Assembly: GCA_026983735.1 (NCBI GenBank)
Contig: JALSTN010000252.1
Span: 1 to 37,056 of the forward strand
DNA: 37,056 bases
Origin: Saprospiraceae bacterium
GTDB lineage: Bacteria > Bacteroidota > Bacteroidia > Chitinophagales > Saprospiraceae
Direction: 5' to 3'
Under the pieces are notes generated by a model that saw only the letters and a program-made list of their open reading frames with translations, was not told the origin of the DNA and ran no database searches. Positions 6,001-25,988 of this stretch are shown here, in pieces. Made by a program: the position numbers and the translations under genes. How positions within the stretch are numbered: position 1 is the stretch's first letter; each line of letters starts with the position of its first letter.

Positions 6001-9000
6001 AAGTATTGTAATTATTCTTATAAGTATGAGGATGAAGTTTATGATGCTTGTGAGGGCGAATTAGAAATTCATAGACATTGGAAGGTGGTGAGTAAATGTT
6101 TGCCTTTAATCCCCGGCGTAAATCCTGCAGAGCATACCCAGGTTATTCGTGTCATAGATCGCGAAGGTCCGAAGATTACATTCCCTGAAGAAGTTACAGT
6201 CAATATGACAGCTACGAGCTGTTTTGGAACTTGGATTGTGCCTGAGCCATGGTTTGAAGATAATTGTTCTGAATCGATATCTTATAAGGTATTAACATGG
6301 ACAGGTAGAGTGGTCAAGCTGCCTAGTGGTCAGTGGATTATTTATGGATTAGCTGAGGGAGATCATAAAGCTATTATTGAGGCTGAAGATGCTTGTGGTA
6401 ATGTAAGTCAGCTTGAGGTTACAATGCATGTAGTAGACAATATTCCTCCAACTCCTGTTTGTAAAACAAAGACAACAGTTAGTTTAGTTAGTTCTAATGA
6501 TCCTGGAACTGATTATGTTACAGTTACGGCTGAATCCTTTGATAATGGTTCTTTTGATAATTGTAAGGAGGTATGGTTTAAGGTGATTCGTATGGAGGAG
6601 TTGCTCGGCAAAACACATGGAAGTAAATCTAACAATACTGTGGCTTGTAATGGACTAAATGGAGATGATGACTTAAGTATAAGTGGCAATCAAGTGTACT
6701 TCGATGATGAGACTTCATTCTGCTGTTTAGATGTCGGACAAAGTGTAATGGTTGTATTTAGAGTCTTTGATATAGATCCAGGAGCAGGACCTATTTCACC
6801 ACAGATTATGGAAAAAGGAAGATTGAAGGGGCACTTCTCGGATTGTATGGTAGAGGTCGATGTTCAGAATAAGGCTTTACCTGTTGTCCATGCACCTGAT
6901 GATGTAGTAGTAAGTTGTCAATATTGGTTTGATGATAGTGAGGCGGCTTTGACTGACCCTGATAATCCAACATTTGGTAGAGTGGTAACAGCAGCAACTT
7001 TAAGACAGAAGCTAAAGACTACTGATGTGGTTTGCCCAAGATGGTGTGAGGATATTGATCTGCACTATCTTAAGTGGTTCCCAAATGGTAAGGCTCCACA
7101 AACAGTGCCGATTCCTTTAGTTTCTGCTAAAGCTTGTCAATTTGCGCAGAATTACTACAATCCAACTCATCCGGATAATAAGTATACCTTGGTCTGGGGA
7201 TGGGACGGATACGTTTCCAGAACATGTGGAGTTACTCCTACCATTACGGTACAGGATAATAGAGAATGTGGACAAGGTGTGATAGTGCGTACGATAACTG
7301 TGACATTAAATGGCGTGAGATATCAGGATAAACAGGAGATTTGGGTTGTTAATTGTGATCCATTCTACATTGATCCGATCGTTTGTACTTCTAATACAGA
7401 TGATATTGAATGGCCCAATGGTTGTAGAGAATCTATTGAGCTCGAAGGGTGTGGAGCAGACCTTGATCCATCTAATCCACAACTTGGTAAGCCTGAAGTA
7501 GTTGGTGATGCTGATAATCAGTGTGCTAATGTTGCTATTAACTATACAGATGATACGATAACGATAGAAAGGGATGCATGCTTCAAGGTAATCAGAGATT
7601 GGAGTGTCATTGATTGGTGTCAGTGGGACATTGATAAAATTGCTGTGGATGATCAAGGACGGCCTTATGGTTATAGTCATCCTCACCCTGGCGAGTGGCA
7701 CTTTAGACAGATTATTCTAGTAAAAGATCAGAATGACCCAGTCGTCACTTGTAGTAAAGGAGATTGTGAACCCAATACATATCGTGATACTATTATTGAT
7801 GGTGTCAAGTATTGTATTGGCCATATTAATCTAAGCGTATCAGCTACTGATGAGTGTACAAAGGATGAATGGTTAAGCTATGATTACAAGATTGATTTAT
7901 ACAATGATGGAGCAGGGAAATATGGCACTTATGATGTGTATGTAGGTCGTGCTCACCTAGGGGAAAAGGCTGTAGATTATTATAACCCTTGGGCTGATAA
8001 TGAACTAGATCCAAGTTCAGCAAGTGGTACCTATCCAATAGGAGAGCATATGCTGCAATACTATGTAGAGGATGGTTGTGGGAATGTCGGTGTATGTAAT
8101 TTATTATTTGAAGTGAAGGACTGCAAAAAACCTACTCCATATTGTGAAGATGGAGCGGTTACCGTTATTATGCCATCTAGTGGTCAAATCACTATCTGGG
8201 CAACAGATCTTGATGCAGGAAGTTATGATAATTGCACAGATACATCAGACTTGAAGTTCTATTTCAATGGAGATCCAAACCAAACAGGTTATACCGTTAA
8301 TTGTGATACATTTACAGCACATGGAGCTACGGTTGAAGTGACCCTTGAAGTTGAAGTTTGGGTAGAAGATGAGGCTGGAAATACTGACTTCTGCAAGACG
8401 CTTATTGTTGTTCAAGATAATAATAATGTTTGTGGTAATAACACCAGTATCGCGGGTAAAGTTATTGATCGTAAAGATCAAGTGCTTCAATCTGTTTTGG
8501 TAAGATTAATGGATAAGGATAGTACAATTGTCAAGACTAAGAAGACAAGAGGTGAGTTTGTTGTTACCGTTCCGGAAAAAGCTGAGTATATAGATATATT
8601 CAAAAATGATGGATGGTTAAATGGAGTTAATACAAAGGATCTTGTTTTCATTCAATTTTACTTGCTCGGTAAACGTTCATTTGGAGATGCTTACCAATAC
8701 TTAGCTGCTGATGCCAATAACAACCATTCGGTATCAACTGGTGATATTGCAATTCTTAGAAAGTTAATTCTTGGTAAAATTGATAATCTGGATCGATGGA
8801 AGCAAACTTCTTGGCGCTTTGTTCCTAAAGATTTCATATTCAACAATTATATGGATCCATGGAAGCATCCTGAGCGTCTACCTATTCAATCTCTTATAGA
8901 GGCAGAGTTAGATGCAGATTTTAGAGCTATTAAAGTAGGGGATGTGGATGCTTCTGCGAAACCTAATTTTACTCAAAAGGCTCAAGTGAGATCTGATAAG

Positions 9001-9675
9001 AAAATTGAATTGATTGTGCCAGAGACAAAGGTTCAGGTCGGTAAACGTATTGAGTTACCTGTGACTGCGAAGAACTTTAGGAATATTGTTGGTATGCAAT
9101 TTAGCCTTGAGTTTGAGCAGGACCAATTGATGTTTGAATCTATTGAACCAGGGAAATTGGATATTGTACCAGGGAACTATGGGGCAAGGCTTACACCAAA
9201 TGGAATTCTAACGTTTAGTTGGAATGCCGAGAGTTCTGGTCAGACTATTAAGGAAGAGGAAGTTTTATTTACTCTTGTATTCAAAGGTCTAACTGAAACA
9301 ATCAATCCGAGGATGATAGTCAGTTCAGTGTTTACACCGGCTGAGGGATATGATGCACAAGGTAGAGATTATGAAATTCATATGAGATATGAAGGTAAAT
9401 ACGCAAAACAACCTGTATTCAGATTGTATCAGAATGAGCCGAATCCATACAAGGATAAAACAGAAATTAGATTTGACCTTCCTAAGGATATGTTAGTAGA
9501 ATTGACATTCTACACAGAGCATGGTAAGATTTTGAAAAAGCTCCCAATGAAAGGATTGGCAGGCGAGAATAGAATAGTAGTAAGTGCTAAAGAGCTAGGC
9601 GAAGTAGGAATAATCTTCTATCAATTAGATTCAGAAGATTACACGGCCACTAGAAAGATGGTTATTGTAAAGTAA
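1..9675 (+). CDS. Giant secreted multidomain HYR-repeat protein with T9SS type A C-terminal sorting domain (5'-truncated by window edge)
   Basis: Frame is open from base 1 (ACC TTA GGT GGC ACG ATG), so the ATG at 16 is probably internal. Many HYR-like repeats (TWTATDxxGNxxTCxxTxTVxDxxxPxxxCPxD, DNC). C-terminus FRLYQNEPNPY...IIFYQLDSEDYTATRKMVIVK matches a T9SS type A CTD. Confidence 0.93.
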   Translation, partial: TLGGTMTHTFPSETSTLKYTAIDSAGNMSMCTWRVTVVDDEDPMITCPADITVMTSAGGTGDCSGHASWTNPTPTDNCMVDTMNLVITYPDNSVELRPNVTAGGAEMGDFPKGVSNLKYTVWDTTGNMSMCTWKITVQDDEDPVVTCHVDVTLPMDPGVCEVLLGTDSLDAGYSDNCPDSTIAHDWPFAPQTHTLYGATFGPGVHVVTWTATDESGNTATCQTTITIVDEQAPVFLNCPDSNWIIPNDLGWCGAIANFPQLIAEDNCTSEADMKYEYSLDMGATWTMGQASSLYYPVGTTPVWHRATDTVGNISDTCMFNVIVLDKEFPDAVCTPVTVYMSATCEGFVTAEQIGGLSTDNCDSTQLLIGRDTITLMDTIFFNMGDLDTSPVVVHLRVCDSVGNCSWCSTNVHLKDTIPPGIVCPPDFTMDVVDNACYIELPDIGAMSFTDNCNIYSIVQTPAPGTNVGSRHGEVVKVTLVITDNEGNTDTCMVNITLNDATPPELACPANVTIGTSAGGTGDCEGVHNWSHPLPIDNCHIDSLNVKYTFPDGSMEVDNNVSHGDTTSKSFPLGTTQIKYTTLDSAGNSTMCFWMVTVVDDEAPIITCPADVRGLVCGDIPPAGASDKMSFEALGGTIMDNCTVNAFTVTYVDVSNGLSTCNFDDSLVITRTYTVTDSSGNYTTCVQKFIYDEDVTAPVISGVPNDTLVSCAEQVPAVPIVTAMDNCMNNEPINLDFNEVVTNDSCHDKFVLTRTWTAYDNCNNSASASYTITVRDTIAPELHNVPADTLVLCQEEIPAVPSNVFATDNCGQLINIEFNEVTVPRGCDDQYDVVRTWKATDACGNVMDSSQTILIRDTIPPVITGGSDFEILCDQSNANNDDELISWLNNNAGAVAIDNCSQVTWTNNYNILNWVDGCGDTRYVDVTFYATDECDNVDSVIFRFGTIDTIPPVFQNCPRLPIVENAETGHCDAYVNFSAPYALDNCTDSVIILQIDSTGLHSGSRFPVGTTILIFEATDGCGNSDTCEYKIIVNDYWEAPILACPSVDTIDNDPGKCGATVFNLKPGVRDSCIDHVAVTYFIIDSSGSIIKEGVEDASGEFFPVGENKLTYVAQDQPIVLITEVSQMLGAPVGATSPIPPHFDGDLTNGDYVEITNFGPTTMDLTCLTLEIVDAGGSVCSRTLPNGTMLAVGGTLVFHVGMGIDNPTNSYFSMNCVEAANSDPRGYIISLYDHVLDVVATNGFDPVGAGSLAVVEADDWSGVSPNMDCHASYYRDRIHDHNDDTDWLLAESCAPATLGSLNPNLPILTDNGTIASLQSTDPGVDTCMLPVLVRDVEIPTCVEYDTLVYSMATNLNVDINVGECYTSVINYPFNAFIGDVNILNLNGISGDINGLEVTLISPEGTEVVLFEGVCSSGDTDFDFSLIDDDAANNINSVGCNPLGGGGASQPMEALKKFYLENAVGDWTLQIANNSCVPNVGVTQLQNWELQILSIDPYSQGDTIFCNDTLMCGGKFMWTHPILEDNCCIGDIYVEYSSNDPIVVPPNGPVDGGQVTMEFFEVGTTTVRYILTDKAGNKSSCSFNVTVKDCEDPIIVNCPADITLQANPGECEVFWSYGYIATDNCGIDTIEVTPPDGTYLKIGKHEIVVVAKDSAGNTDTCKYFATVREFLPATSVMDCNDQTQLSLDETCTATLTADMVLSGEIYYCYESYGLEVTEGCGNKTGAPHSTTFTLDDVGKCFTVRVIEPNTGNSCWGCVCIEDKLAPVIECPPDTAVPCAVAFDPVNTGRPTILSCVRNPQMTYHDKVTDNGRCQTYRLTIERKWTVKDGSGNAVTCTQMIHVKEFDLDDVEFPADVDDLSAPGLACDKFFDETLDNKIDPTKEFIRPGTPNPHFIPHAVDLSTGCSIGCVDDYLLDTVIYNASGCRIRVPRSLGWNVIKNGVNAGHPSPFPIYYRSHWQWVRTNGRRCFGGYPTNDPNALSPYVKWTGTGVPTIGGKSVFDKHKYCNYSYKYEDEVYDACEGELEIHRHWKVVSKCLPLIPGVNPAEHTQVIRVIDREGPKITFPEEVTVNMTATSCFGTWIVPEPWFEDNCSESISYKVLTWTGRVVKLPSGQWIIYGLAEGDHKAIIEAEDACGNVSQLEVTMHVVDNIPPTPVCKTKTTVSLVSSNDPGTDYVTVTAESFDNGSFDNCKEVWFKVIRMEELLGKTHGSKSNNTVACNGLNGDDDLSISGNQVYFDDETSFCCLDVGQSVMVVFRVFDIDPGAGPISPQIMEKGRLKGHFSDCMVEVDVQNKALPVVHAPDDVVVSCQYWFDDSEAALTDPDNPTFGRVVTAATLRQKLKTTDVVCPRWCEDIDLHYLKWFPNGKAPQTVPIPLVSAKACQFAQNYYNPTHPDNKYTLVWGWDGYVSRTCGVTPTITVQDNRECGQGVIVRTITVTLNGVRYQDKQEIWVVNCDPFYIDPIVCTSNTDDIEWPNGCRESIELEGCGADLDPSNPQLGKPEVVGDADNQCANVAINYTDDTITIERDACFKVIRDWSVIDWCQWDIDKIAVDDQGRPYGYSHPHPGEWHFRQIILVKDQNDPVVTCSKGDCEPNTYRDTIIDGVKYCIGHINLSVSATDECTKDEWLSYDYKIDLYNDGAGKYGTYDVYVGRAHLGEKAVDYYNPWADNELDPSSASGTYPIGEHMLQYYVEDGCGNVGVCNLLFEVKDCKKPTPYCEDGAVTVIMPSSGQITIWATDLDAGSYDNCTDTSDLKFYFNGDPNQTGYTVNCDTFTAHGATVEVTLEVEVWVEDEAGNTDFCKTLIVVQDNNNVCGNNTSIAGKVIDRKDQVLQSVLVRLMDKDSTIVKTKKTRGEFVVTVPEKAEYIDIFKNDGWLNGVNTKDLVFIQFYLLGKRSFGDAYQYLAADANNNHSVSTGDIAILRKLILGKIDNLDRWKQTSWRFVPKDFIFNNYMDPWKHPERLPIQSLIEAELDADFRAIKVGDVDASAKPNFTQKAQVRSDKKIELIVPETKVQVGKRIELPVTAKNFRNIVGMQFSLEFEQDQLMFESIEPGKLDIVPGNYGARLTPNGILTFSWNAESSGQTIKEEEVLFTLVFKGLTETINPRMIVSSVFTPAEGYDAQGRDYEIHMRYEGKYAKQPVFRLYQNEPNPYKDKTEIRFDLPKDMLVELTFYTEHGKILKKLPMKGLAGENRIVVSAKELGEVGIIFYQLDSEDYTATRKMVIVK
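3342..3910 (+). other. Lamin-tail-like domain (LTD) within the giant protein
   Basis: IVLITEVSQMLGAPVG...NGDYVEITNFGPTTMDLTCLTLEIVDAGGS...LAVGGTLVFHVG resembles the LTD pattern (I.EV......g..DyVEi.N.g....dLsg..l). Confidence 0.6.
4056..4500 (+). other. Proprotein-convertase P-domain-like module within the giant protein
   Basis: FIGDVNILNLNGISGDINGLEVTLISPEGTEVVLFEGVCSSGDTDFDFSLIDDDA...PMEALKKFYLENAVGDWTLQIANNS...LQNWELQI fits the P-domain pattern (SPsGT..L, a.GtWtL.v.D, L..W.L.I). Confidence 0.7.
8700..8970 (+). other. Dockerin-like Ca-binding motifs (two half repeats separated by an insert)
   Basis: LAADANNNHSVSTGDIAILRKLILGKIDNL, then IKVGDVDASAKPNF about 60 aa later. Confidence 0.6.
9000..9390 (+). 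other. Cohesin-like beta-sandwich domain in the giant protein
   Basis: VQVGKRIELPVTAKNFRNIVGMQFSLEFEQDQLMFESIEPGKL...GILTFSWNAESSGQTIKEEEVLFTLVFKG is cohesin-like. Confidence 0.55.
9418..9672 (+). other. T9SS type A C-terminal sorting domain
   Basis: FRLYQNEPNPYKDKTEIRFDLPKDMLVELTFYTEHGKILKK...GIIFYQLDSEDYTATRKMVIVK. Confidence 0.85.
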
Positions 9676-9712
9676 TATTTAGTTCTTTAGTGGGTATTTC
9701 TGCCCCTGTAAG

Positions 9713-9750
9713 AAGCAAAGACTCTTTATTTCAATAAAGAGTCTTTGCTT
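9713..9750 (+). terminator. Rho-independent-type terminator after the giant gene
   Basis: Perfect 18-bp inverted repeat AAGCAAAGACTCTTTATT-TC-AATAAAGAGTCTTTGCTT followed by TTCT; the A-rich 5' arm could also serve the other strand. Confidence 0.85.
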
Positions 9751-9916
9751 TTCTAGGAGCCAATGGTTAATCACTCTGAAATCTTACAATTGTTCTTGAA
9801 TTACTACCATTAGGAGAGCAATGACTGTAAATATGTTAGCACTCATTCAATTGAGTGGAGGTGAGTTTATCCTACTTTGTTATCATAGTTCATGTTGAAA
9901 TAAATCTTGAAGAAAA

Positions 9917-11023
9917 TTGAGAGAAAAAGTTTATGTGACAAGGCCTTCATTACCTGGTTTGGAAGAGGTACTTCCATATCTTGAAAGGATTTGGACAAGT
10001 AGAACGGTTACTAATAATGGACCTTTAGTTATAGAACTAGAGCGACAACTTGCGGAATATTTGGAAGTTCCCTATATCTCTCTTTTTAATAATGGAACTA
10101 TAGCATTAGTGGCTGCTCTACAGGCTTTAGATGTTCAAGGCGAAGTAATTACAACGCCTTATAGCTTTGTTGCTTCTACACACGCCCTTTGGTGGCATAG
10201 AGCTGAACCTGTATTTGTAGATATTGATCCTTTTACTAATAATTTGGATCCGCAAAAAATCCAAGATGCCATAACTTCACGGACAACAGCCATCTTACCT
10301 GTACATGTCTATGGCCAACCTTGCGACGTTTATCAAATCGAACAGCTAAGTAAAACTTATGACCTCAAGATAATTTATGATGCAGCGCATGCATTTGGAG
10401 TTAAACAGAGGGGCACATCAATATTAACCCATGGTGATCTTAGTATATTAAGTTTTCACGCCACAAAAGTATTTAATACGATAGAAGGTGGCGCGATTGT
10501 ATCTAGTTCAAAGGAGCTTAAGGAGAAAATTGATCGTCTTCGAAATTTTGGATTTGTGGATGAAACAACTGTTGTTTTGCCTGGAATAAACGGCAAGATG
10601 AATGAAATACAAGCTAGTATCGGGTTATTAAATTTAAAGAGTATAGATGAAGAAATCCAGCGTAGGAAAGAGATATATCAATTGTATCAAACCTTGTTGC
10701 AAGGAGTGGTAGGTCTTAGAATTATGCCATTGATGGAGGATGTGGAATACAATTATTCATATTTGCCGATTTTTATTGAAGAAGATGAATTTGGCGCTTC
10801 AAGAGATGATCTCTATTATCGATTGAAGAATTATGAAATATATTGTAGAAGATATTTTTATCCACTTATAAGTACTTTTGCTCCATATTCTTCACTTCCA
10901 TCCTCAAAAAGAGGCAATCTAAAAAATGCATATAAAGTCGCACAGCAAGTAATTTGTCTTCCCATTTATCCTGAACTGTCTAATCAAATGATTGAGTATA
11001 TTTGTAAATGTATATCTGAATGA
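9917..11023 (+). CDS. DegT/DnrJ/EryC1/StrS family PLP-dependent aminotransferase
   Basis: ITTPYSFVASTHALWWHRAEPVFVDIDPFTNNLDP, PVHVYGQPCDVYQIE, DAAHAFGV, SFHATKVFNTIEGGAIV (PLP lysine region). TTG start in the ORF track. Confidence 0.92.
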   Translation: MREKVYVTRPSLPGLEEVLPYLERIWTSRTVTNNGPLVIELERQLAEYLEVPYISLFNNGTIALVAALQALDVQGEVITTPYSFVASTHALWWHRAEPVFVDIDPFTNNLDPQKIQDAITSRTTAILPVHVYGQPCDVYQIEQLSKTYDLKIIYDAAHAFGVKQRGTSILTHGDLSILSFHATKVFNTIEGGAIVSSSKELKEKIDRLRNFGFVDETTVVLPGINGKMNEIQASIGLLNLKSIDEEIQRRKEIYQLYQTLLQGVVGLRIMPLMEDVEYNYSYLPIFIEEDEFGASRDDLYYRLKNYEIYCRRYFYPLISTFAPYSSLPSSKRGNLKNAYKVAQQVICLPIYPELSNQMIEYICKCISE

Positions 11024-11745
11024 ATAGACCATTAAGTATGGCAGTTATGCAGCCCTATGTTTTCCCTTACTTAGGATATTTTCGACTGATTAATGCTGTT
11101 GACAAGTTTGTGTTTTTTGATGACGTCAATTATATAAAGAGAGGATGGATCAATCGTAATAGAATTTTACTTGCAAATAAACCTTTCCTTTTTACTGTTC
11201 CGGTTTCTAGACCCTCTCAGAATAGGAGAATTAATGAGACTTTAATAAATGGTGACCTAAGAGGGATATTGCGTACCATTCATCACGCTTATGCAAAGGC
11301 ACCATATTACAATTGTGTTTATCCGGTATTAAAGCATATTTTTGAGCAAGATTGGGAGGGAGTTCCGATCTCAATGTTAGCCGAGAAAAGTATCATCTCC
11401 ATTTGTCATTATTTGGGCATTCAACGGGTATTTGAAAGGACTTCAAAGGATTATAAATGGTCTATTGATTTAAAGGGCCAAGATAGGATCTTAGAAATAC
11501 TCCATGTTAATCAAGCTACTAAGTATATAAATGCGGAAGGTGGAAAAGAGTTGTATAATCCGTCTGAGTTTAGGAAACGGAGGATTCAATTGTTCTTTCT
11601 GAAAAATTCAAATATAGTTTATAAGCAATACAATGATAGGTTTGTTTCTAATTTGTCCATTATTGACGTGCTGATGTTTAATGATAAACAGCAAGTGAAT
11701 AACTTTATTATGAATAATTATGAACTTTTAGAGAAGAATGAATAA
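11020..11745 (+). CDS. WbqC-like family protein
   Basis: MAVMQPYVFPYLGYFRLINAVDKFVFFDDVNYIKRGWINRNRIL is characteristic of the WbqC family. ATGA overlap with the upstream gene. Confidence 0.88.
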   Translation: MNRPLSMAVMQPYVFPYLGYFRLINAVDKFVFFDDVNYIKRGWINRNRILLANKPFLFTVPVSRPSQNRRINETLINGDLRGILRTIHHAYAKAPYYNCVYPVLKHIFEQDWEGVPISMLAEKSIISICHYLGIQRVFERTSKDYKWSIDLKGQDRILEILHVNQATKYINAEGGKELYNPSEFRKRRIQLFFLKNSNIVYKQYNDRFVSNLSIIDVLMFNDKQQVNNFIMNNYELLEKNE

Positions 11746-12184
11746 GTTAAATCTCCAATTCAAATTGAATAGATCAAGTGCTTCAGAGATAGAGGAACAT
11801 TTGGAAAGGAACAACCACTCTTTTTTTCCAGTTTTAAGTGACCAGGTGGATATTCATCAATATGCAGTAAAACTTTACAAAAATGCATATCGATTTGAAC
11901 TTTGGGATAAAGCATCTATGGTGGGGTTAGTAGCATGTTACCTCAACGATAAAATAACGGGCATAGCGTTTATTACCAATGTTAGTGTTGATAGAGAATG
12001 GCAGTCTCTTGGAATTGCTACTTTTCTGTTGAAAAAGTGTCTAAACCATGCCAAGAAATTGGGATTTGAAATGATTAAGTTGGAAGTAAATAAAAAGAAC
12101 ACAGCCAAGAGGCTATACGTTAGAATGGGCTTCCTTTTAGATGAAGTTAGTAAAGATAAACTTATCATGTCGTTAAAATTTTAG
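11738..12184 (+). CDS. GNAT family N-acetyltransferase
   Basis: ITNVSVDREWQSLGIATFLLKKCLNHAKKLGFEMIKLEVNKKNTAKRLYVRMGF: GNAT motif A (here QSLGIA) and motif B. Confidence 0.85.
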   Translation: MNKLNLQFKLNRSSASEIEEHLERNNHSFFPVLSDQVDIHQYAVKLYKNAYRFELWDKASMVGLVACYLNDKITGIAFITNVSVDREWQSLGIATFLLKKCLNHAKKLGFEMIKLEVNKKNTAKRLYVRMGFLLDEVSKDKLIMSLKF

Positions 12185-12186
12185 CT

Positions 12187-13407
12187 TTGATGAAAAATAA
12201 GCACAATCTGCTCTTTTCTGAAATTACGTTTATTTCTCCTCGAGATGTGAGGAAGAATAGATCAGATGTAGTGCATATTATGAGAACTTGTTCCGGTTTT
12301 GTGAAGAACGGAATGAAGGTGATGCTTCTTACCCCAAGAGTTCAGCGTGAGGGTAATATCCAATCCAAAAAGGAAGTTAAAAGTTATTATGCTCTGGATA
12401 GTACATTTTTTAAGTTAATAGAATCAGATTATTGTATAAAAGAAAATCATTTAGGGGAGACTTCATTTGTGAAACTGGTTTTGTTAAAACTCTTTTTGAC
12501 TTTCAAACATTTTCTTGGGAATCGCAATGACTATAAAAGTAAGAATCACATAATTATTAGTAAGTGTATAATCTCATGTGTGCCAATTATTCTATTGAAA
12601 AAAATTAATTTAATAAGCTCGCCGTTGACTTTAGAACTTATTCATGCCAAAAAAAGTTTTCTCTATGGTTTTGTAGTTCGCCATGCGGACTTTATTATTA
12701 GTCACAGTCCTTTTGTTACATATTACCTGTCTAATTTTTTAAAAAAGGCTCCACATAGGATTGTTCAGCCTCCAATGATAACACAAAGTAAAGAATTCAA
12801 GGAACATATTAAATTGCAAAAGGAGGATTATAAAGAGCTTTTGGGGTTTTGTTCCAACCAACGATTAGTTATGTATGCAGGCAAGGTATTTGTAGGTTCA
12901 AAAGAGATACAATATATATATGAGGCCGCGAAGCAATTGCCAGATATTCGATTTGCAATTGTCGGTGCGAGTCCGACGGCAATGAGATACTATGAAGAAT
13001 ATTTCAAGGGAGTCAGGAATATAACATTATACCCCTTTCAATCAATTCATAAGTATTATGAATTTGTGAAGAGTGCCGATATTCTAATTGCTTATTATCC
13101 TAGGTCGAATCATTATATGTACCACCTTGATCCGGGTAAAATCGGGGTATATTTGGCAAGTGGAAATCCCGTAATATTGTCTGATTTAATAGGGCTGAGG
13201 TTGAGGTTTAAAGAGTGGATGGTCAAATTTGTTCCTCCTGATGATGTTAGTCAACTAGTAGCATCCATTCAAACCATATTGTCAGATTATGATCGATTTT
13301 CTAGAGATGCGGAGAGAACTAGGTTATATGTTGAATCGTTTGATTATGAGTATTATACTGCTTGTGTTCTTCGTGATATTAATAAATGTATAGCACAATG
13401 GGATTAA
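12187..13407 (+). CDS. Glycosyltransferase (GT-B, GT4-like)
   Basis: N-terminal Rossmann-like region; RLVMYAGKVFVGSKEIQYIYEAAKQLPDIRFAIVGASP...SADILIAYYPRS...DPGKIGVYLASGNPVILSD. Confidence 0.75.
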   Translation: MMKNKHNLLFSEITFISPRDVRKNRSDVVHIMRTCSGFVKNGMKVMLLTPRVQREGNIQSKKEVKSYYALDSTFFKLIESDYCIKENHLGETSFVKLVLLKLFLTFKHFLGNRNDYKSKNHIIISKCIISCVPIILLKKINLISSPLTLELIHAKKSFLYGFVVRHADFIISHSPFVTYYLSNFLKKAPHRIVQPPMITQSKEFKEHIKLQKEDYKELLGFCSNQRLVMYAGKVFVGSKEIQYIYEAAKQLPDIRFAIVGASPTAMRYYEEYFKGVRNITLYPFQSIHKYYEFVKSADILIAYYPRSNHYMYHLDPGKIGVYLASGNPVILSDLIGLRLRFKEWMVKFVPPDDVSQLVASIQTILSDYDRFSRDAERTRLYVESFDYEYYTACVLRDINKCIAQWD

Positions 13408-13445
13408 TTGCTATGTATTTTGAATAGAAATGAATTTATACTATT

Positions 13446-14858
13446 TTGGATATAAAAAAAACATTGATAAGAGGTGGTGTTTATGTGGCAGGGGCCAATG
13501 TCATTGGGCAGATTGTTGCTGTAGGTGTTAATGTTTTACTGGCTAGATTATTGTTGCCGGAAGATTTTGGTCTAATCGCTTTAGCAAGTACTTACATTGG
13601 ATTTATTTCTTTGTTTAGTGCAGTGGGGTTTGGGTCATCAATCATATACTTTAAGGAGTTGGATAATAAACAATTATCCTCATTGTATTGGTTGAATTGG
13701 GTTTTTGCAGCCTTCACTTATTTACTTGTTGTATCGACATCCAGTTGGATATCAACGTTCTATGGCCAATCTGAATTGAGAGGTATTGTGATTCTTTCAG
13801 GAGTTAGTATATTAATTTCACCCTTATTTTCATTGCATTACAAGCTCTTAGAACGGGAATTAAAATTTAAAATACTTTCTATTTGGAATTTAGTTTGTAC
13901 AGTTTTAGGAGGTAGTGCTGGCATTATTGCAGCGTTATTAGGATTGGGGGTGTATTCCTTAGTTTTGCAGACCTTGGTGACCATTTTGGCTAAGAGTATA
14001 GTCTATTTGAGGATAATTAGATGGCGTCCTATTATTTATTTTGATTATAATGGGGTTAAGGCGATGATTTGGTATGCTGTAAAATATAAGATGTCAAACT
14101 CAGTCTTATACATCGAGCGCAATCTTGATTATTTGGTTTTGGGTAAGCAATTTCCTTCCAAGGTGATAGGGTATTATTCGTTTGCTTATAATATAATGTA
14201 TGCTCCTGTAAAGAGAGTATCCTATTTATTTAGTAATATGCTTTTTCCTGCACTTTCTACTATTAAGGATGATCATTCTAGATTGATTCATATGTTCTTT
14301 AAGTCTGTCAGTTTAATTGCCATGGTTTCATTTCCTGCTATGGCAATTCTTTCATTTAACGCCAATTTTCTGATTCCATTTGTTTTTGGAGCCCAATGGA
14401 ATTCGGCAATACCCATAGTCCAAGTTTTATGTTTTGCAGGAGCTATACAAAGTGTTTCACAACCTGGCGCGGTTGTATTTCCGGCTTTAGGAAAGCCTGA
14501 AATATCCATTTATCTTTCTATTATTAGAACGTTATTAACTGTTGGTGCCATCTTAATAGGTGCACGGTATGGAATTTTGGTGGTCGCATATGGACTTGTG
14601 GTGGCTAAATTTTCATCTTTTGTTCTTACTATCATAGTAATGAGGTTGCAAATTGAATTTAATATACTTCAAATGTTAGGCTATATGCTTGGGTCTACTG
14701 TCACAGTTGGGGCTCTGGTCGTACTACAATCTTGTTGTAAGTCTATGGAACCGATTTATTTATTATCGCTGATGATTTTTATTGCAGTTGTTATGATAAC
14801 TATATTTTATCATGGCACTATTCGTAGGGTAATAAGTGTTCTTTGGCAAAAACAATAA
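13446..14858 (+). CDS. Wzx-like oligosaccharide flippase (MOP superfamily)
   Basis: GGVYVAGANVIGQIVAVGVNVLLARLLLPEDFGLIALASTYIGFISLFSAVGFGSSIIY; many TM helices. TTG start. Confidence 0.9.
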   Translation: MDIKKTLIRGGVYVAGANVIGQIVAVGVNVLLARLLLPEDFGLIALASTYIGFISLFSAVGFGSSIIYFKELDNKQLSSLYWLNWVFAAFTYLLVVSTSSWISTFYGQSELRGIVILSGVSILISPLFSLHYKLLERELKFKILSIWNLVCTVLGGSAGIIAALLGLGVYSLVLQTLVTILAKSIVYLRIIRWRPIIYFDYNGVKAMIWYAVKYKMSNSVLYIERNLDYLVLGKQFPSKVIGYYSFAYNIMYAPVKRVSYLFSNMLFPALSTIKDDHSRLIHMFFKSVSLIAMVSFPAMAILSFNANFLIPFVFGAQWNSAIPIVQVLCFAGAIQSVSQPGAVVFPALGKPEISIYLSIIRTLLTVGAILIGARYGILVVAYGLVVAKFSSFVLTIIVMRLQIEFNILQMLGYMLGSTVTVGALVVLQSCCKSMEPIYLLSLMIFIAVVMITIFYHGTIRRVISVLWQKQ

Positions 14859-14869
14859 AAATTCATCTA

Positions 14870-15706
14870 ATGAAAGGAACAATTTTTATTCCGGAGATAA
14901 AGTCTGAAGAAGAGATTATTTTGAATATAAGACTCATGATTGATAAAGAGTATCAAAAGCTATTTCAAGCTGTAATCGTGCATGGAAGCTTTGCTACAGA
15001 TGATCGAACGTTATTTAGTGATTTTGATGGTTTGTTGATCGTTCATGACAAATATATGAAACATAAGGAGTTGAATCATTTCATATCAAAGTCACTAGAA
15101 GAAATCTATCGATTTGATCCTTTGCAACATCACGGGTGGTTTGTGATATCGGTATCATCGTTATTGCAATACCCTGAGGAATACTTACCTATCGCTGTTT
15201 TGAAAGAAGCAAAATGTATCTATCCTATTGAAGGATGTGAGTTACGTTATGTTCAAAAGACGAGAATCAACTATTTGAAGATAGCAGATAAATATATTGA
15301 AGCTTTAATAAAGAGAGTTAATCGCCCATGGCAGCCTAGAAATATATATCAACTAAAAAGTTTTTTGAGTCAAGTAATGTTATTACCTTCACTGCTTTAT
15401 GCTGCGATTAATAATCGCGGAATATACAAAAGAGATAGTTTTGTCCCTATTCAAGCTTTGTTTACTGAGCAAGAATGGTCACCCATTGTTATTGCAAGTC
15501 ATATTCGTGAGAATTGGGATTATTCGCTTAATGTATTTCAGCGATATATGATGAAACGTCCGGGTAGGGTATTTCGTAAAATGACTCAACATTGGATTGC
15601 ACCCTCGATTGACCCTAAGACCAAATTGTTGCTAAATGATGAGTTCTATTACAATTTATCCATACTGCTTAACAAATCAAAAGCTCTTTTACATGATATA
15701 ATGTAA
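14870..15706 (+). CDS. Nucleotidyltransferase-fold (pol-beta superfamily) protein
   Basis: VIVHGSFATDDRTLFSDFDGLLIV = hG[SG]...Dh[DE]h motif. The ORF track starts at TTG 14843 inside the flippase ORF; ATG at 14870 is the more likely start. Confidence 0.7.
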   Translation: MKGTIFIPEIKSEEEIILNIRLMIDKEYQKLFQAVIVHGSFATDDRTLFSDFDGLLIVHDKYMKHKELNHFISKSLEEIYRFDPLQHHGWFVISVSSLLQYPEEYLPIAVLKEAKCIYPIEGCELRYVQKTRINYLKIADKYIEALIKRVNRPWQPRNIYQLKSFLSQVMLLPSLLYAAINNRGIYKRDSFVPIQALFTEQEWSPIVIASHIRENWDYSLNVFQRYMMKRPGRVFRKMTQHWIAPSIDPKTKLLLNDEFYYNLSILLNKSKALLHDIM

Positions 15707-15794
15707 TGAGAATCTGTCTAATAAATTTATTCGCGTAAAAATATATCCTTTATTACAGTGCTTTTCAAGCGTGAAGTAAAAATAGAATAAAACT

Positions 15795-16817
15795 ATGAAG
15801 TATCAAATAACTCAAATCCCTCAATATATCCCTAGGCAGGATTATATGGATTTGGTAGATAGAATTGTAAGCCAATTTTCTGAAATGCCGGAAGTCGATT
15901 CTATCTATCAGGTTGGTTCTATTAAGAATCCCGGTATTTCAGATTTGGATATAATTGTAGTATTTAAGGATAATGAGGCGGTTAAGTTAAATTATAGAGC
16001 TAGTATTTCTGAGTATGAAAAACAAATCTTGACGCATGGATTATTTGGTACTTCGGTAAGTCTTTTTCAAGAAAGTATGACTTATAGTGTGTTCTCTAAT
16101 TATAATAAATTATATTCGAGTAAAAAATCGTCTTTGGACAAAATGCCAGCTCTGCGAATATCAGCAGAAAATAAAATTCAGATTGCGATGGAATATCTCC
16201 TTAGGATGTGGATAACTTTAGTTGTTCAAAAATCATTTATGGTGTTTAAGTTAAGATCATTGCTTTTGGAGATTAAGGCCTTGAGTTATGACTTGGAGTT
16301 GCTTGGTGTGAAGGGAGGTAAATTGTATGAAATGGTCAATGAAATAATAGATTTACGGAATCAATGGTTTAGACAGAGTTGGGGCCCTGACCGTATATGT
16401 ATTTGGCTAGAGAGCTTTATTCGCGTATTGAGAGAGGAGCTTCAAGGGTATTTTAAGAAATTTAGATTTGTAATTCCTTATGATCATTTCAAAATTGCAA
16501 GAAATATTATAATTCGGGAAGGCAATGAACTTGAATATAAGGTAAAAGGGGTCTCCCAATTAAGTCATTTTTACAATATATTAGGATCAAAATATTTTAG
16601 CCTAATGAATCGATTAAATACCTTTCAATTTTATGTTCCTTCTGAAATAGTTTTACCCCGAAGTAGTCAATACAAGCGATTTTGCTATTTACATAAACAT
16701 CTCATATACAATAAAATGTATTTACCACATTTTGGGATACTGGGAACGAGTCTAAGGATGGATGATGGGCTTTTAAGAATGGAGACAAGCCGTCCTAAGG
16801 TTCCGCCCTCTTTTTAG
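15795..16817 (+). CDS. Second nucleotidyltransferase-fold (pol-beta superfamily) protein
   Basis: VDSIYQVGSIKNPGISDLDIIVVFKDN: GS...SDLDIIVV motif; alpha-helical C-terminal region. Confidence 0.65.
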   Translation: MKYQITQIPQYIPRQDYMDLVDRIVSQFSEMPEVDSIYQVGSIKNPGISDLDIIVVFKDNEAVKLNYRASISEYEKQILTHGLFGTSVSLFQESMTYSVFSNYNKLYSSKKSSLDKMPALRISAENKIQIAMEYLLRMWITLVVQKSFMVFKLRSLLLEIKALSYDLELLGVKGGKLYEMVNEIIDLRNQWFRQSWGPDRICIWLESFIRVLREELQGYFKKFRFVIPYDHFKIARNIIIREGNELEYKVKGVSQLSHFYNILGSKYFSLMNRLNTFQFYVPSEIVLPRSSQYKRFCYLHKHLIYNKMYLPHFGILGTSLRMDDGLLRMETSRPKVPPSF

Positions 16818-17021
16818 TATCCAAGCTGGGAAAAGAATGGTGGAAAATTTATTTAATTATAATACTTTTTGTCGATAAATTACAAGGAGTTTTTTTTTCT
16901 GAAGATGATTCTATGATTATATCGAGTTTCTTAATTTGTAGATCTTGTTTAGTATTATTTAAGTTTTATTAAAAGCATTCGTGCCTTGAATGTTGAAAGG
17001 ATAACATCGTCTTTAAAGTGA

Positions 17022-18179
17022 ATGAATATGAATACAAATAAACCTAGACTAATTGTTGTTCCTTCATTATTCCCTAAAGATCAAGATGATATACGGGGAA
17101 TTTTTGTGGTGGATTGGATAAGGGTAGTTGAACTATATTATTCCGTTGAAGTGATATGTTATGAGTTTTCTAATGAAATTGATCCAGGGATATATCAGGA
17201 GGAAATACATGGAATTATAGTGCATAGATTAGTCCTGAAAGGTAGAAAGGGGAGTTTTGGTAAAATTGTACAGTATTGGAATTTGTATCGTCTTTTTATT
17301 CAGTATTTTAAAAGGAAATTGTGTAGTGCAAGAATCATACATGTACATGGTGCCTCGTTACCTGGTTTTATGGTGGTCAGGGCTATAACTGGGGTCAATG
17401 TCCCTATTCTTATTACAGAGCACACAGGTCCCTTCAATAAAATATCCAATAGTTTTTTTCTCCGCAACATGGCTAGGTATGCTTTGAGAAGATCTGATGT
17501 TTTTTTACCTGTGAGTAAGGACTTGTATAAACAAGTTATTGATGCGGGAATCAGCCACCCTAATACTATTGTACTTGGAAATCCTGTTGATACTTCATTA
17601 TTTGAACCGGACGGAGATTTGAAGAGGGAAAAGGCAATTCTTTTCGTTGGGCGGCTTGAGTCCTATAAAGGTGCTATGAAATTGTTGAAATCCTTCCATG
17701 CTTTATCCTTAGATAAGTGGAAACTTTGGATTATTGGTGAAGGACCTGAATATGACGACCTAAAAGCATTTGTCGAGACAAATCAATTGGATCGACGGGT
17801 ACTTTTATTTGGTAAATTGTCCAAGAGAGATATTTCCATGTATATGAAGAGAGCCTCTTTTCTTGCTTTTCCAAGTGAGCATGAGACCTTTGGCCTTGTC
17901 GTAGTTGAAGCTTTGGCATCCGGTTTGCCTGTTTTAGTGTCAGAGGGTACAGTTTTTGTAGAATATGTCGATGAATCCAATGGAATTTTGGTAGATCTCA
18001 ATAAAGAAAGGGCAATAGAACAAGGACTACTGTCATTAATTGAAAACTTATCAAGCTACAATAGCATTGAGATACGCTCACACGTTGTTCAAAGGTTTTC
18101 TTTCGAAAATTTTGGTGGCATACTCCGACAAATTTATAGTGATGTAATTAATAAAGTGGAAATTAGCCAAAAGAGATAA
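17022..18179 (+). CDS. Glycosyltransferase family 4 protein
   Basis: RIIHVHGASLPGFM...LFVGRLESYKGAMKLLKSFHAL...LWIIGEGPEYDDLKA...FPSEHETFGLVVVEALASGLPVLVSE. Confidence 0.92.
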   Translation: MNMNTNKPRLIVVPSLFPKDQDDIRGIFVVDWIRVVELYYSVEVICYEFSNEIDPGIYQEEIHGIIVHRLVLKGRKGSFGKIVQYWNLYRLFIQYFKRKLCSARIIHVHGASLPGFMVVRAITGVNVPILITEHTGPFNKISNSFFLRNMARYALRRSDVFLPVSKDLYKQVIDAGISHPNTIVLGNPVDTSLFEPDGDLKREKAILFVGRLESYKGAMKLLKSFHALSLDKWKLWIIGEGPEYDDLKAFVETNQLDRRVLLFGKLSKRDISMYMKRASFLAFPSEHETFGLVVVEALASGLPVLVSEGTVFVEYVDESNGILVDLNKERAIEQGLLSLIENLSSYNSIEIRSHVVQRFSFENFGGILRQIYSDVINKVEISQKR

Positions 18180-18182
18180 ATT

Positions 18183-20123
18183 ATGTGTGGAGTTTTTGGG
18201 GTTATAGATACTAGAGGAGTAAATGTTCAGGGGTTAATTAGCATGTCTCGTACTCTTGCTCATCGTGGGCCGGACGATGAGGGGTTTTTGCTTTGTCAAT
18301 TAGACGGAGGGACATCAGAGTTTGTGGGAGAGGATTCAATGGATATTTTACGCTTTAATATGAAGAGAATTGAAGAGTATGGTAGTGAAAACTTTATTGT
18401 TGGTTTAGGGCATAGAAGGCTATCTATAATTGATTTAAGCTATATGGGGCATCAGCCAATGAGTTATGCAGAAAGGTTTACCATTTCATATAATGGAGAA
18501 ATTTATAATTATAAAGAGATTCGATCTACTTTGATGCAGAAGGGGTATATGTTCGATAGTAAAACGGATACCGAAGTGATTCTCAAGGCATATGATTGTT
18601 GGGGGGAAGAGATGGTACACCGATTTATTGGTATGTGGGTTATAGTGATTTGTGATCTACAAAAAAAAGTTTTGTTTATATCAAGAGATAGGTTTGGTAT
18701 AAAACCTTTTTATTATAATTTAAGTAGAGGACGATTGGTCTTTGCCTCAGAGATCAAAGCATTGTTCAATTATCCTGGAGTCGAGAAAAGAGTCCAGGAT
18801 GAATATTTGATACAATTTATTGTCAATGGGGTTGAACCGCTTAATGGTAAGACCGTTTTTGAAGGTGTTGAGGAGTTGTCTCCGGGGTGCAATATGACCA
18901 TTTCATACTCATCACTTGATTACAAGATAAAGAGATACTATCAATTAGAACACCAAATCGATCAATGCCGGAGAGAAAATCTAACTGAGAAGGAATCTGT
19001 TGAAAAGTTTGAGTGTTTATTTGAGAATAGTATTGCGCTACAAATGCGGTCAGATGTTGAAGTAGGCAGCTGTTTGAGTGGTGGATTGGATTCGTCAGCG
19101 ATTACTACTTTTGCGGTGAATCAGATTGGATCTGACGCTTCATTTAATACTTTTACTGCCGCTTACAATGAACCAGAAATTGATGAGTCGAACTATGCTC
19201 GTTCTGTAGTGAAGTACTTGCAAAATGTGAAAGGAAGTTATATTTTCCCAAGTTCTAAAAATTTTTTTGAAGATTTTGGCAAGTTGGCCTACCAGCAGGA
19301 TTTACCTGTCGGTTCGTCATCAATTTATGCACAATGGGAGGTTATGAAATTAGCAAAGGCCAACGGTATCAAAGTGTTGCTAGATGGACAAGGTGCTGAT
19401 GAAATACTTGGAGGATATGGTTATTTTAGTGGAGTTTATTTATTAGATTTATTGAAGAAGGGTAAATGGAGGAGCTTCTCAATAGCGGCAAAAGCATTGA
19501 AAAAGAATAGGGGTATTTCTGTTTTGCGAGAACTAGGGCGAGCAGTCTTCCCTCAATTGCCGCTTAATTTGCAAAAGTTGGTGAGAAAGGAAAGGCGATT
19601 AGGCTACCATTTCATAACACCTCAATATAGAAATACTGTTCTTCAAACACAGGTAGATAAATATCACAATACATTTGAAGGACGGTCAATATGGGCTGTA
19701 AATAATAGCTTGAAAAGACTGTTGAGATATGAGGATAGGAATTCTATGGCATTTTCTATTGAAGCTCGTGTTCCATACTTAGATCATAGACTTGTGGAGT
19801 ATGCGATTGCTATTCCCGCTGAATACAAGATAAATAACGGATGGACAAAGTATATTTTGAGGAAAACCATTGATTCTAGGTTACCAAGCAATATTACGTG
19901 GAGGCGGGACAAAAAAGGGTTCGAAACGCCACAATCCAAATGGAAAGAAGAATTAGAAGTGAAAGTTATCGATTTTGTAGGGGGGGCAAGATGGCCGGAT
20001 TATATCGATAGTGAAGCGATAATGAAATTTTGTGCTTTGCCATTGAATTCATCATCTTCTTTGAGTGAATTCTGGAGGATAATATCTGTCTTGCAATGGA
20101 TGGAGCAATATAAATTAGTTTAG
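18183..20123 (+). CDS. asnB: Asparagine synthase (glutamine-hydrolysing)-type amidotransferase
   Basis: N-terminal MCGVFGVID with Cys2; RTLAHRGPDDEGF; SYNGEIYNYKEIR; ATP-PPase loop SCLSGGLDSSAI; DGQGADEILGGY; EARVPYLDHRLVEYA. Confidence 0.94.
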   Translation: MCGVFGVIDTRGVNVQGLISMSRTLAHRGPDDEGFLLCQLDGGTSEFVGEDSMDILRFNMKRIEEYGSENFIVGLGHRRLSIIDLSYMGHQPMSYAERFTISYNGEIYNYKEIRSTLMQKGYMFDSKTDTEVILKAYDCWGEEMVHRFIGMWVIVICDLQKKVLFISRDRFGIKPFYYNLSRGRLVFASEIKALFNYPGVEKRVQDEYLIQFIVNGVEPLNGKTVFEGVEELSPGCNMTISYSSLDYKIKRYYQLEHQIDQCRRENLTEKESVEKFECLFENSIALQMRSDVEVGSCLSGGLDSSAITTFAVNQIGSDASFNTFTAAYNEPEIDESNYARSVVKYLQNVKGSYIFPSSKNFFEDFGKLAYQQDLPVGSSSIYAQWEVMKLAKANGIKVLLDGQGADEILGGYGYFSGVYLLDLLKKGKWRSFSIAAKALKKNRGISVLRELGRAVFPQLPLNLQKLVRKERRLGYHFITPQYRNTVLQTQVDKYHNTFEGRSIWAVNNSLKRLLRYEDRNSMAFSIEARVPYLDHRLVEYAIAIPAEYKINNGWTKYILRKTIDSRLPSNITWRRDKKGFETPQSKWKEELEVKVIDFVGGARWPDYIDSEAIMKFCALPLNSSSSLSEFWRIISVLQWMEQYKLV

Positions 20124-23828: not shown

Positions 23829-25988
23829 ATGAAGCAATTGACGCAGCAACTTAAATCAGGGAAAATGCAAGTTCTTGAAGTTCCCTTCCCTATATTAAAG
23901 ACAGGAAACTTACTTGTGAGAACTCATTTTTCTGTGATTAGTTCGGGTACTGAAGGGAAGACCGTAAAGGATGCTCGTAAGGGGTATATCGCAAAAGCCA
24001 AAAGCAGACAAAAGGAAGTTAAACAAGTTTTTGATACAGCCAAAAAAATAGGTGTGCGCGCCACCTATAAGCTCGTAATGAACAAACTAGAGTCTTTTTC
24101 ATCTCTGGGATATAGTGCTGCCGGACAGGTTATTGGAGTGGGAGAAGATGTTACAGAGTTTGAAGTGGGTGACTTTGTAGCTTGTGGTGGTCCAAGTGCA
24201 GGACATGCTGAAGTTATATCCGTTCCAAAGCGACTTTGTGTCAAAATACCATCTGGAGTAGATCTTATAGAGGCTTCTTTTACAACACTCGCTAGTATTG
24301 CGATCCAGGGTATTCGACAGGCAGACCTTAGATTTGGGGAGACATGTGTTATTATTGGAATGGGACTCATTGGCCAATTGACCTATAAAATTCTGGAGAG
24401 TTCCGGAATGTTTCCCATTGGTATAGATATATCAAAGGAGTCAATAGAATTTTGTAGAAAAATGGAGATGAGCCGAGTTTATCATAGATATGACGAAGGT
24501 TTGGATAAAGTTATTTTAGGTTATACACGAGGACGTGGAGTTGATGTTGCAATCATTGCAGCAGGAACATCATCTTTAGATCCGGTAGAGTTTGCTGGTG
24601 AGATTGTTAGGAAGAAGGGGAAAGTTATCATTGTAGGTAGCGTACCTACTGGTTTTTCACGGCAAAATTATTATAAGAAGGAATTGGAGTTGAAGATGTC
24701 TTGTTCTTATGGACCAGGACGATATGATCTCCAATATGAAGAGAAAGGCATTGATTATCCTTATGCTTATACACGTTGGACAGAGCAAAGAAATATGGAG
24801 AGTTTTGTTGACCTGTTAAGGGAAAAGAGATTAAGTATAAAATCTTTGGTTACTCATAGCTATAGCCTTGATGATGCACCGAAGGCCTATGATATGATTT
24901 TGTCGTCTAATGAGTATTTTTCAGGCATAATAATTAAGTATTCAATTGATACGGAAATCAAGGCATCCATCCGGCTTAAGTCTGAAATAAAGATTGTGCC
25001 CAATACTCCTACAATTGGATTTGTCGGTGCCGGTTCTTTTGCTAAGGGAACCTTGTTGCCGGTTATTAATAAGCATTTGGTTCAGTTTGTTGGTGTAGTG
25101 AATTCTAGTGGTAATAGCTCGCGATTTGTAGCAGAAAAATATGGATTTAGTTATTGCGCTTCTACTGTTAGTGATATTTTTTCAGATGATCATATTAATA
25201 CTGTTTTTATTACAACAAGACATGATTTACATGCTAAGATGGTAGTAAAAGCCATTCAGAATGGAAAGAATATATATGTTGAGAAGCCTCTGGCGATGTC
25301 ATTTTTAGAGTTGGATACCATTTTGAAGCATTATTCTGATTTTTCTAATTCTAAAGAGGAGTGTGCTAAACAACCCAAGCTTATGGTTGGCTTCAACCGG
25401 CGATTTGCACCATCTGTTCATGCCTTATATGAAAAAATGAATGATGAGCTTCCCAAATCAATTCTAATTCGCGTAAATGCAGGTGCTCTTCCTGCTGATC
25501 ATTGGGTAAACGACCCCGAGATAGGGGGTGGACGCATTATAGGTGAAGTTTGTCATTTTGTTGATTTAGTTACGTTTTTATCAAAGAGTAAAGTGAAGAC
25601 TCTTTATGCTGAATCCATGACTGAACCTCTTGATCAAATGGATACAATAAACATTAATCTGAAAATGGAAAATGGCTCTATTGCAAATATATCTTACTTT
25701 TCGAACGGTTGTAGTCGGCTACCCAAGGAGTATATCGAAGTATTCCAGGCAGGAAAAGTATATCAAATAGATGATTATAAGAGATTGACGATTTTTCATT
25801 CAAGCGGAGTTAAGAATAAGCGATTCAAAGGGATGGTTAAAGGACATAAAGAAAGTGTTCATGCCTTTTTGACATCAATTATTGAAGGAAAGCCGTCTCC
25901 TATTCCTTTTGAGGAAAGTTATCATAGTACATTGGTTACACTTAAAATATTAGAAAGTCTTCGAATGAAATGTGTTCAGTTTTTATAA
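23829..25988 (+). CDS. Bi-domain oxidoreductase: zinc-type alcohol dehydrogenase-like fused to Gfo/Idh/MocA-like
   Basis: N-terminal MDR-like GYSAAGQVIGVGEDVTEFEVGDFVACGG...VIIGMGLIGQLTYKI; C-terminal Gfo/Idh TIGFVGAGSFAKGTLLPVI...KNIYVEKPLAMS. Confidence 0.92.
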   Translation: MKQLTQQLKSGKMQVLEVPFPILKTGNLLVRTHFSVISSGTEGKTVKDARKGYIAKAKSRQKEVKQVFDTAKKIGVRATYKLVMNKLESFSSLGYSAAGQVIGVGEDVTEFEVGDFVACGGPSAGHAEVISVPKRLCVKIPSGVDLIEASFTTLASIAIQGIRQADLRFGETCVIIGMGLIGQLTYKILESSGMFPIGIDISKESIEFCRKMEMSRVYHRYDEGLDKVILGYTRGRGVDVAIIAAGTSSLDPVEFAGEIVRKKGKVIIVGSVPTGFSRQNYYKKELELKMSCSYGPGRYDLQYEEKGIDYPYAYTRWTEQRNMESFVDLLREKRLSIKSLVTHSYSLDDAPKAYDMILSSNEYFSGIIIKYSIDTEIKASIRLKSEIKIVPNTPTIGFVGAGSFAKGTLLPVINKHLVQFVGVVNSSGNSSRFVAEKYGFSYCASTVSDIFSDDHINTVFITTRHDLHAKMVVKAIQNGKNIYVEKPLAMSFLELDTILKHYSDFSNSKEECAKQPKLMVGFNRRFAPSVHALYEKMNDELPKSILIRVNAGALPADHWVNDPEIGGGRIIGEVCHFVDLVTFLSKSKVKTLYAESMTEPLDQMDTININLKMENGSIANISYFSNGCSRLPKEYIEVFQAGKVYQIDDYKRLTIFHSSGVKNKRFKGMVKGHKESVHAFLTSIIEGKPSPIPFEESYHSTLVTLKILESLRMKCVQFL

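Follow-up and report, generated by a model that had tools for sequence, protein, structure and literature searches.

What could two adjacent nucleotidyltransferase (NTase)-like genes be doing in the midst of a glycan locus? The question is raised by a contig of a Saprospiraceae bacterium (JALSTN010000252.1, assembly GCA_026983735.1), of which the whole stretch analysed, hereafter the window, measures 37,056 nucleotides. The two genes, called here A and B, are consecutive open reading frames with NTase signatures, and reside between a Wzx-like flippase gene and glycosyltransferase genes, as reported in the preliminary description of this DNA. Both frames were confirmed at the positions given there, with the motifs it quotes; the arrangement is as follows:

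13446-14858, plus strand: Wzx-type flippase (PF13440, 241 bits), context; overlaps the TTG start of A
14843-15706, plus strand: gene A, predicted NTase-fold protein; ORF of 287 aa from TTG 14843, 277 aa from ATG 14873
15795-16817, plus strand: gene B, putative paralogous NTase-fold partner; ORF of 340 aa
17022-22640, plus strand: in this order 3' of B, GT4 glycosyltransferase, AsnB-type amidotransferase, second GT4 and Wzy-like polymerase, context; relatives have these genes around A-B too

The start codon of A is ambiguous, the ORF opening with TTG 14843 and the internal ATG at 14873 being favoured by relatives. Wza and Wzc are encoded in the same locus, as is a bacterial sugar transferase (PF02397). 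Ahead of it, at 1-9675, lies an ORF of >3200 aa, open at the window start; a long ORF of ~1985 aa is found immediately ahead of the A-B locus L006 as well. At 23829-25988 the window encodes a fused zinc alcohol dehydrogenase/Gfo-Idh-MocA oxidoreductase, present also in the A-B loci L072, L074, L081 and L082, and followed both in the window and in L082 by a 390-aa protein. On the opposite strand, 28222-29832 code for a protein that combines a CrtC-like lipocalin domain and a Por secretion tail, and this gene overlaps the end of a DUF354 gene by ~39 bases.

The fold of the two proteins had to be sought in structure prediction, because Pfam matches to NTase families are sub-threshold for both. 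A reaches 17.6 bits where PF18765 demands 26.9, and 16.7 bits where PF01909 demands 21; B also remains below these NTP_transf_2/Polbeta cut-offs, with 16.6 bits for PF01909 and a second match of 12.9 bits. AlphaFold models built from a four-row alignment have mean pLDDT values of 84.1 (A) and 79.4 (B). In Foldseek comparisons with the PDB, AAD(9), ANT(3'')(9) and AadA came on top for A (E 3.6e-4, probability 1.00), and ANT(6)-Ib, LinB and AAD(9) for B (E 2.4e-4, probability 0.98). TM-scores over the whole chains are modest, reaching 0.43-0.50 in the top matches of A and less in those of B; placement is therefore secure only for the NTase domain, and weaker for the helical one. The models support the notion, put forward in the preliminary description, that A and B have a pol-beta-type nucleotidyltransferase fold, with sugar-antibiotic adenylyltransferases as the nearest matches of both. 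A sequence search of the PDB yielded weak NTase-motif matches for A and nothing significant for B. Similarly, hhalign of either protein against AadA aligned little outside the NTase motif, and homology to AadA over the whole length is therefore not claimed from sequence. A falls far under the NCBIfam cut-off of the ANT(9) family, no curated family in Pfam, NCBIfam, PHROGs or PADLOC covers A or B, and searches of NCBIfam, PHROGs and phage and plasmid collections retrieved no relative or family for either. Profiles of RmlA/GlmU-type pyrophosphorylases (PF00483, PF12804), from which the pair had been set apart from the beginning, matched neither protein. A match in G018 was discarded as spurious, as it resides within an unrelated gene.

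A and B had also been described as otherwise unlike each other, a view that needs correction. Plain BLAST of A against B of the window gives almost nothing; hhalign aligns B with A over 187 columns (probability 80%, E 1.3e-5), and by this profile comparison the two appear to be diverged, distant paralogues. Relatives were found in three Bacteroidota contigs, one genome with a fused copy and six virus contigs. A single set of 395 genomes from the class was then searched with an enlarged profile of A and, separately, with one of B; either search matched 16 genomes, and these, which span several families, are identical. Chance agreement of two such sets would be ~1e-28 assuming independent genomes, kinship making the true figure less extreme. 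A comes first, on the same strand as B, in 24 of the 24 unfused loci, and the ends of the two genes overlap or abut (gap <=1 base) in 14 of them; in some unfused loci a methyltransferase, a sulfotransferase or another gene is interposed. In genome G229 (locus L033) A and B are fused into a single polypeptide of 1141 aa, with a C-terminal TPR-like part. Pairwise distances among A and among B sequences are correlated (Mantel r 0.86, 0/2000 permutations; 0.85 within Bacteroidota alone), and in the A tree as in the B tree phage copies make up one supported group, the window and L006 copies another. The coupling of A and B is well supported, and the case is strong that they behave as one unit, not as two unrelated proteins.

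The unit recurs with glycan genes in Bacteroidota. Seventeen other capsule-type Bacteroidota loci exhibit a recurring core of Wza/Wzc/Wzx/Wzy, AsnB and GT4 genes, joined in several of them by the fused alcohol-dehydrogenase/Gfo-Idh-MocA protein; L079 and L086, short or divergent, are the only ones devoid of any Wza/Wzc/Wzx/Wzy gene. Unclassified neighbours of A-B are chiefly glycosyltransferases, methyltransferases, sulfotransferases and acetyltransferases. In L033 the fused A-B-TPR gene is followed by large glycosyltransferase genes and then by flagellin (9019-18487), an arrangement which suggests a flagellin glycosylation island. On the virus contigs, three of which out of six carry a terminase, A-B is surrounded by GT2, NeuB and CMP-sugar-type cytidylyltransferase genes. 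What all these contexts have in common is the assembly of glycans, rather than any one sugar or a lipid carrier. Because the pair is found also beside flagellin and in phages, the idea that the substrate could be a lipid carrier is weakened. The link of A-B to glycan assembly is well supported, yet linkage to glycan genes is by itself no proof of a glycan substrate.

Individual loci display further peculiarities. In L008, L082 and L085 sulfotransferase genes immediately adjoin A or separate it from B. Glycerol-3-phosphate dehydrogenase and methyltransferase genes lie directly upstream of A in L076, L078 and L080, and L076 additionally hosts a LicD gene. In the virus contig L018 a methyltransferase-like domain is fused in front of A (2972-4996). 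Two proteins with no Pfam family recur in viral loci, one of ~390-400 aa carrying the motif VDTEGPIGG downstream of B (L012-L015, L018); the gene for the other, of ~350-375 aa, immediately precedes A in L012-L015 and L019.

Residue conservation was monitored in 25 A and 25 B sequences, A being numbered from the TTG:

14984-14989, plus strand: A motif 1, Gly48-Ser49; 25/25 homologues
15017-15028, plus strand: A motif 1, Ser59-Asp60-Phe61-Asp62 (putative metal dyad); S59, D60 and D62 25/25
15116-15136, plus strand: A motif 2, Asp92-Pro-Leu-Gln-His96-His97-Gly98; H96, H97 and G98 25/25, D92 24/25
15356-15358, plus strand: A Lys172; 24/25
15428-15430, plus strand: A Lys196, aligned with AadA Lys205 in a joint alignment; 25/25
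15506-15508, plus strand: A Arg222; 25/25
15930-15950, plus strand: B motif 1, Pro46-Gly-Ile-Ser49-Asp50-Leu-Asp52; G47, S49, D50 and D52 25/25, P46 24/25
16191-16193, plus strand: B Glu133, 23/25; outside motif 1, B has no further acid that is strongly conserved

In A, P116 is also invariant (25/25), and H47 and P182 are conserved in 24/25 sequences. Bacterial copies of the two proteins average ~30% identity, and the persistence at this mean identity of GS and SDxD in the A homologues, and of SDxD in the B homologues, indicates that the motifs are not there by chance. In B, Y17 and G41 are invariant (25/25), and R154, K161 and R188 are mostly retained; the GS serine, which should follow G41, is kept in only 6/25 sequences. 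The catalytic signatures thus hold up in orthologues as far as D-x-D is concerned for both proteins and GS for A, while the GS serine is mostly absent in B.

A third carboxylate on the following strand is usual, though not universal, in the pol-beta NTase superfamily. The preliminary description could locate none with confidence, and the families bear this out: in A the strand that should carry it showed no such residue, an invariant His-His-Gly (25/25) preceded by Asp92 (24/25) occupying the corresponding segment, and the 25 B sequences revealed no conserved acid at this place, Glu133 lying further on. An attempt to equate B Glu133 with KNTase Glu145 failed, the alignment not being trustworthy. 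In AadA, Glu87 is the proven catalytic base (PMC6065190), and Lys205 contacts the ATP phosphates (PMC6065190, PMC4631478). In a joint alignment the AadA Glu87 column corresponds to G98 of A (G88 from ATG 14873), beside the two histidines; a second alignment places the gaps differently, and the match of Glu87 with the HHG segment varies accordingly. Within the limits of a twilight-zone alignment, K196 of A pairs with Lys205, and no firm counterpart of the ATP-binding Arg192 is seen. A looks competent for nucleotide and metal binding, whereas most B copies lack the GS serine. That a catalytic base is provided in trans is a suggestion.

How might the two proteins work together? We tentatively favor, as possible rather than probable, a two-subunit glycan nucleotidyl/phosphodiester transferase, in which A would be active, and B its partner or a second site. 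According to this model A would rely on GS/SDxD, together with basic residues in its helical domain, to bind NTP and metal, as aminoglycoside adenylyltransferases do. It would pass a nucleoside monophosphate, or some derived phosphodiester group, on to a hydroxyl on one of the sugars of the glycan during the cytoplasmic assembly of the latter, ahead of export or attachment. The diverged paralogue B would complete the active site or hold the acceptor, like the second subunit of dimeric KNTase (ANT(4')-Ia) and LinB, whose active site is formed by both subunits (PMC4631478). The heterodimer, the NTP donor, the hydroxyl acceptor and the replacement of the catalytic carboxylate by His-His are all putative elements of the model. 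AadA, ANT(3'')(9) and AAD(9) offer the closest parallel, because they feature, like A, an NTase and a helical domain and GS and SDxD motifs, a basic residue of A can be aligned with AadA Lys205, and the known family acts on sugar-like acceptors. Unlike these enzymes, A has an obligate paralogous partner, resides in a glycan locus, and carries the invariant HHG, no equivalent of Glu87 having been found. KNTase and LinB share the NTase fold with A-B, but are homodimers, whereas A and B are diverged paralogues encoded by two genes or by one fused gene.

The main rival to transfer of a nucleoside monophosphate is transfer of a phospho-X group (glycerol, ribitol, choline or an amino acid) to the glycan from a CDP-activated donor, in the manner of LicD/FKRP enzymes; in a variant of this scheme the paralogues would divide the work, CDP-X being synthesised by one of them and phospho-X transferred by its partner. 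LicD-family enzymes belong to the NTase superfamily and take part, as A-B may do, in capsule assembly, and one of them, Cps7C, is a proven capsule transferase (PMC11666461). In Clostridioides difficile, flagellin carries a phosphodiester-linked N-methyl-threonine, and the pathway proposed for it combines the action of a nucleotidyltransferase with that of a phosphotransferase and with methylation (PMC10714395). Methyltransferases adjoin A-B in several loci, phage L018 joins A to a methyltransferase-like domain in one protein, and three related loci have a glycerol-3-phosphate dehydrogenase gene at the second position upstream of A. Yet Pfam gave no match of either protein to LicD (PF04991), and hhalign of A against one LicD protein was null, with no profile similarity, so that membership of either in this family is unsupported. 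No CDP-alditol or CDP-choline synthase was recognised near A-B in the window, and the conserved basic residues of A would suit a triphosphate donor. As for the flagellin type A pathway, nucleotidyl and phosphodiester chemistry is combined there with methylation on a surface glycan, but its enzymes are a GDP-mannose-pyrophosphorylase-type protein, CD0242, and the TagF-like CD0244 (PMC10714395), instead of the pol-beta folds of A-B. On balance phospho-X transfer is an unlikely account.

Alternatively, the pair could act on a phosphorylated metabolite and turn it into a new donor, NDP- or CMP-linked. Enzymes with a pol-beta fold are capable of such chemistry, as exemplified by Tam41, which makes CDP-diacylglycerol and is a weak entry among the fold matches of B, and A-B always adjoins glycosyltransferases. 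Against the proposal, the phage clusters already have their own CMP-sugar-type cytidylyltransferase, and sugar genes vary among loci while A-B is constant, hence no single precursor is implied. We regard this as quite improbable.

Slightly less credit is due to a regulatory role, in which A would AMPylate or UMPylate a glycosyltransferase, Wzc or B, and so control polymer output, like GlnE or MNT-HEPN systems. NTase-fold enzymes often modify proteins, both MNT antitoxins and GlnE are among the Foldseek matches of A, and the two-gene layout, with an NTase-fold member, is reminiscent of MNT-HEPN modules. B is however an NTase paralogue, not a HEPN protein, as the preliminary description had sensed in keeping the two kinds of pair separate, and the glycan context is constant; moreover, no protein target shared by capsule loci, the flagellin island and phages could be recognised. 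Least credible of all is a catalytically dead scaffold or acceptor-binding pair, which would account for the third carboxylate found in neither protein and for the GS serine missing from most B copies, but not for the invariance of GS, SDxD, K196 and R222 in A and of S-D-x-D in B across 25 sequences (~30% mean identity), which selection for a scaffold would hardly preserve. A reading in terms of defence or toxin-antitoxin systems was rejected, since PADLOC returned short NTase-domain matches only (best PDC-S09, E 8e-7, 27 bits) and the context is glycan.

Neither a fold foreign to NTases, nor unconserved residues, nor lack of linkage to glycan genes, any of which would have told against the preliminary description, was encountered outright. 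Descriptions of the A-B pair were not found in the open-access literature searched, whose coverage is incomplete; as far as found, the fold is known, and what is apparently undescribed is the His-His-Gly site, the obligate pairing of the paralogues and their linkage to glycan genes. A broader proposal, which we consider somewhat unlikely as a whole, sees in A-B a heteromer of pol-beta fold whose active site would be split and would have an invariant His-His-Gly in place of the third carboxylate; this enzyme would add nucleotidyl or phosphodiester groups to capsules, flagellin glycans and phage-encoded glycans, and thus represent an unrecognised class of decoration. Known bacterial glycan nucleotidyl chemistry mostly yields sugar donors, and direct phosphodiester decoration by pol-beta-fold enzymes has, to our knowledge, been seen mainly with LicD-type enzymes. 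An NTase module that is strictly paired, fused in nature and carried by phages provides a genetic handle, and its presence predicts a chemical feature of the glycan to look for. If the proposal is true, folds like those of the antibiotic adenylyltransferases would be given a place in ordinary cell-surface biology.
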